Shown piece by piece: positions 17,783 to 17,907 of a stretch of DNA of 64,000 nt. The notes beneath the pieces were generated by a model that worked only from the letters and a program-made list of their open reading frames with translations, searched no databases and had not been told where the DNA came from. The translations under genes were made by a program, and so were the position numbers. The stretch is from Labrys okinawensis (GTDB lineage Bacteria > Pseudomonadota > Alphaproteobacteria > Rhizobiales > Labraceae): assembly GCF_002982075.1 (NCBI RefSeq), contig NZ_PUEJ01000006.1, positions 124,001-188,000 on the forward strand, read 5' to 3'. The first letter of the stretch is position 1; each line of letters starts with the position of its first letter.

Positions 17783-17907
17783 GCGGCGAATGCCGGCGGA
17801 ACTACATGGCTATTCCCCACGTGATGCGGGTTCGAATCCCGTCGGGTCCACCACTATGGGCCCGTAGCTCAATGGTAGAGCATATGTTTCGCCATTCTTG
17901 TCGCCGC
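17783..17907 (+). ncRNA. yrlA: Y RNA (YrlA-like), copy 5 of 5, with tRNA-like CCA
   Basis: The outer stem is GCGGCGA with TCGCCGC, and the inner stem GGCGGAAC with GTTTCGCC. The head is almost a complete permuted tRNA: T-arm GCGGG-TTCGAAT-CCCGT (17826-17842), then CGGGTCC (17843-17849) pairing over 7 bp with GGGCCCG (17858-17864), and D-arm TAGCTCAATGGTAGAGCA. The loop joining the two acceptor strands starts ACCA, i.e. a discriminator base plus CCA, as at a tRNA 3' end. No T-run follows; the end of the transcript is not obvious. Confidence 0.9.

Follow-up and report, generated by a model that had tools for sequence, protein, structure and literature searches.

A Labrys Y RNA with a predicted complete, circularly permuted tRNA head and a CCA conserved among alphaproteobacteria

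The 64,000-nt stretch of Labrys okinawensis DNA analyzed here (hereafter the window; contig NZ_PUEJ01000006.1, positions 124,001 to 188,000) encodes the Ro60 orthologue Rsr followed by five tandem Y RNAs, the fifth of which (copy 5) reads as a YrlA, the bacterial form of Y RNA. As judged from base pairing and covariation, copy 5 belongs to a subclass of Y RNAs in which a complete transfer RNA (tRNA) is circularly permuted, the break falling between nucleotides 28 and 29 and the new ends bearing the Ro60-binding stem. The predicted order in this subclass is the 5′ strand of the Ro stem, the anticodon hairpin (29–41), nucleotides 42–48, the T-arm, the 3′ strand of the acceptor and N73-CCA, and then a short spacer, the 5′ strand of the acceptor, the D-arm, nucleotides 26–28 and the 3′ strand of the Ro stem. 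Comparison of alphaproteobacterial sequences shows that the N-CCA (a discriminator base followed by CCA) and the 7-bp acceptor are under selection. The whole explanation we favor, in which RNAs of this permuted subclass lose their acceptor spacer in the manner of permuted transfer-messenger RNA (tmRNA) and leave a CCA-ended tRNA mimic bound to Ro60, stands in our estimate at an even chance.

Direct reading of copy 5 bore out the layout proposed in an initial annotation of this DNA: the T-arm (GCGGG-TTCGAAT-CCCGT) is followed by CGGGTCC, the A at 17850, the CCA at 17851-17853, CTAT, GGGCCCG, TA and the D-arm. All seven acceptor pairs form, six of them Watson-Crick and one G3:U70, and A-CCA opens the loop that they close. 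The minimum free energy (MFE) fold, at −54.8 kcal/mol (z −3.24; none of 200 shuffles was equally good), contains the Ro stem, an anticodon-like hairpin, the T-arm, the acceptor and the D-arm; it lengthens the hairpin TGG-CTATTCC-CCA by TAC/GTG and lets A73 pair with the U preceding G1, which brings the acceptor to eight pairs. The copy is slightly degenerate, in that its anticodon loop CTATTCC has no purine at position 37 (R37), its nucleotides 27–28 are unpaired with 42–43 and its hairpin is extended on the 5′ side. Copy 5 is encoded beside rsr and, by fold and covariation, carries both a Ro stem and a tRNA-like D/T/acceptor domain, and the Rfam YrlA model (RF02553) scores 65.5 bits on it against a threshold of 69, with an E-value of 1.3e-14 in a targeted search; only copy 2 passes that threshold, copies 1 and 5 being clear matches below it. 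Other identities were considered and rejected. A real tRNA or tRNA array is ruled out, as ARAGORN found 0 tRNAs in the window; the tmRNA models stay below threshold, the permuted one touching copy 5 with 26 bits (RF04321, threshold 47) and RF00023 scoring 14.3 (threshold 47); and a fresh copy of a genomic tRNA is excluded by a best match of about 44 of 54 positions among 30 genomic tRNAs, which were drawn from 30 loci.

To place copy 5 among its relatives, Y RNAs were gathered through Rsr (80 loci) and with the YrlA model in 100 relatives, 385 genomes of the class and 397 genomes of the order. Heads were recognized as a succession of T-arm, acceptor, loop, acceptor and D-arm accompanied by a Ro-stem motif, the last requirement removing tandem tRNAs that were included among class-level Rfam matches with weak E-values. 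The initial annotation had the Ro-binding stem replacing the anticodon arm, which is wrong: the arm is present in copy 5 and in most relatives, as attested by an anticodon hairpin, by pairing across a split stem and by tRNA calls after re-permutation. Specifically, a 3-bp stem with a 7-nt loop lies at a fixed distance upstream of the T-arm, with all three pairs formed in 45 of 57 RNAs, compared with 0–11 of 57 in other registers and a mean of 8.7 (maximum 17) when the 3′ strands were dealt among sequences; this fixed-register test was used because chance stems confound one in which the register is free. The loops, of which there are about 30 different ones, resemble anticodon loops, with a pyrimidine at position 32 (Y32) in 49/57, U33 in 49/57 and R37 in 53/57. 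Nucleotides 27–28, which follow purine 26, pair with 42–43 in 54/57, where adjacent registers gave 1–5, one further register 19, and dealt strands a mean of 24.9 (maximum 37). Taken with the inner hairpin, this pairing indicates a split anticodon stem with two outer pairs closing across the new ends, so the inner three pairs and the loop would remain intact while the Ro stem branches between 28 and 29. Such a hairpin is not universal, and 36 of 93 Y RNAs have no anticodon stem-loop linker of normal length.

With the acceptor loop masked, an alignment of 20 sequences had 97.4% of its cells paired, against 36–44% when the strands were slid, and 21 of the 35 pairs had changed on both sides, including all seven acceptor pairs and all three of the anticodon stem-loop. 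When the RNAs were re-permuted into tRNA order with a CCA end, ARAGORN called 68 of 69 as tRNA, copy 5 included; it called none of the 69 in native order and a mean of 38 when halves of different RNAs were mixed. The re-permuted anticodons were varied, with stop-reading ones among them, which together with the variety of acceptor identities argues against a decoding role. Processing and religation to a decoding tRNA is likewise unlikely, given the mismatch between anticodon and acceptor identities and the stop-reading anticodons in relatives.

Among 68 distinct alphaproteobacterial heads, 52 have an acceptor loop of at least 5 nt, and in 33 of these the CCA starts at the second loop base, after a 7-nt acceptor strand and the discriminator, whereas each other loop offset from 0 to 7 accounts for 0–1 of the 52. 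The 33 N-CCA heads represent 23 different acceptor stems with compensatory changes, and all seven acceptor pairs are formed in 30 of them, compared with 9 of the 19 remaining long-loop heads. By manual tally, at least one N-CCA copy is present in 31 of the 43 alphaproteobacterial genomes that have such RNAs; in most of the others with a long loop, a one-off variant of the CCA occupies the identical place. Between related RNAs whose bodies are 75–98% identical, the CCA is 79% identical and the remaining loop 30–38%, little above chance; loop length ranges from 5 to 55 nt, and the sequence beyond the CCA is near random. Close relatives have not lost the CCA or the 7-bp pairing, the outcome that the initial annotation had set as its refutation: the Labrys genomes G001, G002 and G003 retain both, as do numerous alphaproteobacteria beyond Labrys. 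The proposal of that annotation that the CCA is selected is thus upheld, and copy 5, presented there as a special case, is instead a member of a widespread subclass. Two further candidate signals were rejected: G3:U70, which copy 5 shares with tmRNA and which would confer alanine identity, occurs in only 10 of the 33 N-CCA RNAs with a similar spread in non-CCA heads and is not selected, and a U before G1 as a signature of RNase P is uninformative, being found in 22 of the 33 and in 13 of 28 Labrys tRNAs.

A natural insertion marks the same loop. In Labrys KNU-23 and WJW the copy 5 orthologue reads ACCA, then about 270 bp (272 nt in KNU-23), then GGGCCCG, and the insert is a dispersed miniature inverted-repeat transposable element (MITE), bounded by inverted repeats, with 5–12 matches per genome in four of five Labrys genomes. 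Between the two species, the 120 nt of the RNA halves show 1 substitution; the MITE has 19 in 270 (p 0.011), the spacers have 43 in 382 (p 7e-5 against the halves) and the remaining Y RNAs 37 in 705. With indels counted too, the contrast of the halves with the MITE weakens to p 0.06, and that with the spacers stays at p 3e-4. The conservation of the halves around the MITE suggests that the interrupted RNA is still under constraint, and the site at which the large insert is tolerated is the very loop that would be lost under a cutting model.

The conserved CCA, standing where a tRNA ends, suggests that tRNA-processing enzymes may cut copy 5 open. In the scheme that we propose, RNase P would cut before G1 and exonucleases would trim back to the CCA, removing the spacer as in permuted two-piece tmRNA. 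Encoded CCA usually blocks RNase Z, and because the CCA of copy 5 is encoded, RNase Z is the less likely 3′ enzyme. The product would be a tRNA-like RNA in two pieces whose CCA end is free; the acceptor, the 27–28:42–43 pairs and the Ro stem would hold the pieces together, and Rsr would carry them. During RNA-damage stress, the Ro60-bound mimic might recruit, or be recognized by, enzymes that read CCA-ended tRNAs; the free CCA could serve to recruit or occupy tRNA enzymes, to carry an amino acid or to present an end to PNPase. The same genome encodes a permuted alphaproteobacterial tmRNA (304 bits) with the same acceptor layout, CGCCTCC-ACCA-loop-GGGGGCG, so the maturation machinery exists. 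Precedents for the removal of such an acceptor loop have been reviewed (PMC3978253), and the pieces of the permuted tmRNA of Hodgkinia are seen in RNA reads (PMC6581868). The maturation of alphaproteobacterial N-CCA Y RNAs by RNase P and 3′ exonucleases, to give CCA-ended tRNA-like RNAs that Ro60 carries in two pieces and that are possibly aminoacylated or clamped by tRNA enzymes, is a tentative proposal to which we give somewhat less than an even chance.

Several observations weigh against this explanation. In copy 5 the base preceding G1 is a possible partner for A73, an arrangement less than ideal for RNase P, and loops in Rhodobacteraceae are only 5 nt long (ACCAT), leaving one spacer base to remove. 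Some genomes show only a one-off variant at the CCA site (AACA, AGCA, ATCA, ACCC or CCCC), so the CCA is dispensable in some lineages, and no CCA was found in the beta- and gammaproteobacterial YrlA heads of the same scan. The 3:70 pair of the 33 N-CCA RNAs is C:G in 13, G:U in 10, A:U in 5 and G:C in 5, indicating that no single aminoacyl identity is kept. Finally, a large hairpin insert such as the MITE could be tolerable without any cutting.

These points bear on a reading in which the RNA stays in one piece and the CCA, in its closed loop, is a docking signal for tRNA-binding proteins or for RNase P RNA, which pairs with RCCA, making YrlA an uncut decoy or adaptor. The conserved CCA and 7-bp stem suit it, the short Rhodobacteraceae loops leave little to cut, and Salmonella YrlA, whose head is permuted and closed, is known to mimic tRNA (PMC11472068, PMC8394870). 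Loops of 5–55 nt and a MITE flanked by conserved halves nevertheless fit a removed spacer better, and a closed loop offers no obvious reason for a CCA at the exact position of a free end, so we regard the uncut RNA as possible and on the unlikely side.

A second alternative shifts attention to the anticodon hairpin as the conserved feature, making these RNAs Ro60-bound decoys or sensors for anticodon nucleases of the RNA-repair operon, with a CCA that only aids folding or modification. It draws on the retained anticodon stem-loop with its frequent U33 and R37 and its many different loops, on the neighboring rtcR and the kptA- and rtcB-like genes of a sister species, which were read by eye, and on an earlier suggestion that YrlA might compete for an anticodon nuclease (PMC7790460). 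It leaves the exact conservation of the CCA unexplained, and it sits poorly with the Y RNAs that have no hairpin linker of normal length and with the missing R37 of copy 5; we consider it unlikely.

The origin of the head bears on a third alternative. A covariance model of the Y RNAs with the acceptor loop masked matches tandem identical tRNA genes (Lys-Lys and Asn-Asn; E 1e-13 to 1e-15), with the match taking in the first tRNA from its anticodon arm to its CCA, then the spacer, and the second tRNA as far as its D-arm. This is the topology expected if the head arose at a tandem tRNA junction, and we infer that the Y RNA head may have begun as the junction of two such genes, a route also proposed for permuted tmRNA and tRNA (PMC3978253). 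Of the descent from a permuted tRNA gene suggested in the initial annotation, the circularly permuted tRNA stands, and the origin is better put as a tandem tRNA gene junction. Two-piece maturation would fit Y RNA heads arising in this way. All 28 Labrys tRNA genes checked encode CCA, which makes an encoded CCA local custom. That the CCA is a functionless relic of heads repeatedly captured from CCA-encoding tandem tRNA genes can draw on these matches, on that custom and on the loss of CCA in some lineages, and is nonetheless very improbable, as copy 5 is far from every genomic tRNA compared and the CCA is kept between related RNAs, which probably descend from each other since acceptor stems are shared across families, while the remaining loop is near random.

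The features of the locus are listed in the table. The Rsr of the window is 95–96% identical to that of two Labrys species, which points to a Labrys-like alphaproteobacterium, and the divergent rtcR is a mark of the RNA-repair setting around rsr and the Y RNAs. Copies 1 and 2 have the GCAA loops, on 6-bp acceptors, that the initial annotation ascribed to them, and copies 3 and 4 are without such a head, as it also stated. The open reading frames of the window beyond the Y RNAs comprise a MarR regulator and others, with no rtcB recognized nearby.

Table. Features of the rsr/Y RNA locus, in window coordinates.
Feature	Coordinates	Strand	Evidence
rtcR, divergent sigma-54 activator of RNA-repair operon	13633..15234	-	Pfam RtcR 3.6e-82, Sigma54_activat 8.8e-49
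rsr (Ro60 orthologue), first cluster gene	15511..17118	+	Pfam vWA_Ro60 4.5e-19, TROVE 1e-9
Y RNA copy 1 (6-bp acceptor, GCAA loop)	17184..17326	+	RF02553 55.4 bits; head
Y RNA copy 2 (6-bp acceptor, GCAA loop)	17355..17477	+	RF02553 78.8 bits, above threshold
Y RNA copy 3 (Ro stem retained, head diverged)	17500..17624	+	Ro-stem motifs in sequence
Y RNA copy 4 (Ro stem retained, head diverged)	17654..17759	+	Ro-stem motifs in sequence
Y RNA copy 5, predicted complete permuted tRNA with Ro-binding stem	17783..17907	+	RF02553 65.5 bits; MFE z -3.24
Copy 5 anticodon stem-loop, TGG CTATTCC CCA	17807..17819	+	MFE fold; hairpin position conserved in relatives
Copy 5 T-arm	17826..17842	+	5 bp, TTCGAAT loop
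Copy 5 acceptor 3′ strand (66-72)	17843..17849	+	Pairs with 17858-17864 over 7 bp, each pair covarying in relatives
Copy 5 discriminator A73 and CCA	17850..17853	+	CCA at same offset in 33/52 alphaproteobacterial heads
Copy 5 remaining acceptor loop (intervening sequence)	17854..17857	+	MITE site in two sister species
Copy 5 acceptor 5′ strand (1-7), G3:U70	17858..17864	+	Sequence, covariation
Copy 5 D-arm	17867..17881	+	Sequence, covariation

Loci in other genomes vary on this arrangement. Sister Labrys loci (L030, 7399-7509; L031, 6561-6770) contain extra Y RNAs absent from the window, which lie between copies 4 and 5, upstream of copy 1 and after copy 5, and in Labrys G003 (L015, 1656-2700) the Y RNAs are followed by kptA-like (Tpt1, RNA 2′-phosphotransferase) and rtcB-like genes, as read by eye. 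A record titled Mycobacterium sp. KBS0706 (L034) has an rsr/Y RNA locus close to that of Inquilinus and is probably mislabeled. We also encountered permuted RNAs of other kinds. On one contig (L201, G552:C30), a permuted T-arm/acceptor/ACCA/D-arm unit, CCTCCCA-ACCATTTTCTTGA-TGGGAGG, occurs twice near tRNA genes without a Ro-stem motif. Another permuted RNA (L019, 1433-1660) lies in a phage-like array with 14 or more tRNA genes; it is tRNA-like, includes ACCA and a perfect anticodon hairpin (CTACGAA), and is closed by a long stem of its own with a T-run. Y-like RNAs of a second class (L020/L220 in G039, L219 in G380, L222 in G103) have a GTTACTTC or GGTTAYY motif replacing GGAACTACA; those in L020 and L219 adjoin a different Ro60-like (TROVE/vWA) protein, and those of L020/L220 and L222 also bear an anticodon hairpin. 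A scan of viral sequences for the Ro/T-arm pattern gave four contigs, none with a Y-like head by the head scanner.

Mimicry of permuted tRNA by YrlA is already known: the structure of Salmonella YrlA (6CU1) can be superposed on that of tRNA once circular permutation is allowed for (PMC11472068), and YrlA is reported to have D-, T- and acceptor-like arms, links to Rsr and PNPase, and dihydrouridine and pseudouridine introduced through DusA and TruB (PMC8394870). The complete cloverleaf and the conserved CCA appear to be new, as the YrlA literature that we searched, which lay outside the primary YrlA papers, mentions neither an anticodon arm nor a conserved CCA. The head of the Y RNA would thus be a whole permuted tRNA, anticodon arm included, in many proteobacteria, with its CCA kept by selection in alphaproteobacteria, and a vague likeness to tRNA becomes a set of sharp predictions, namely ends at CCA and G1, cleavage by RNase P and perhaps charging, for which copies 1 and 2, with their GCAA-capped 6-bp heads, provide a natural control within the operon beside the CCA-bearing copy 5. 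A tandem tRNA gene junction, moreover, gives the head a concrete origin. If the processing scheme is true, the tRNA mimic carried by Ro60 would be split and CCA-ended, in a setting of RNA repair where the repair operon is regulated by damaged tRNAs (PMC7790460), and these RNAs would join tmRNA as a second natural class of permuted tRNA-like RNA that is split.

Copy 5 shares with YrlA (RF02553; 6CU1) the Ro60/Rsr operon, a Ro stem with the conserved AAUGC internal loop, and the permuted T-, acceptor and D-arms. It differs from the Rfam consensus of YrlA in its anticodon hairpin, which is present in the window copies as an insertion of at least 12 nt, and from both that consensus and the beta- and gammaproteobacterial relatives scanned in the N-CCA that follows its 7-bp acceptor. 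The succession of T-arm, acceptor 3′ strand, ACCA, spacer and acceptor 5′ strand is that of permuted two-piece alphaproteobacterial tmRNA (RF01849/RF04321), which has its own tag reading frame, SmpB partner and constant G3:U70; copy 5 instead combines a real D-arm with an anticodon arm and a Ro stem. Like the permuted tRNA genes of red and green algae and of Thermofilum, copy 5 places the 3′ half before the 5′ half with an intervening acceptor loop (PMC3978253), and archaeal permuted tRNA genes encode CCA, one of them with a 1-nt spacer (PMC3978253). The algal and Thermofilum tRNAs are religated at their outer junction to decode, whereas the outer ends of copy 5 form the predicted Ro60-binding stem.
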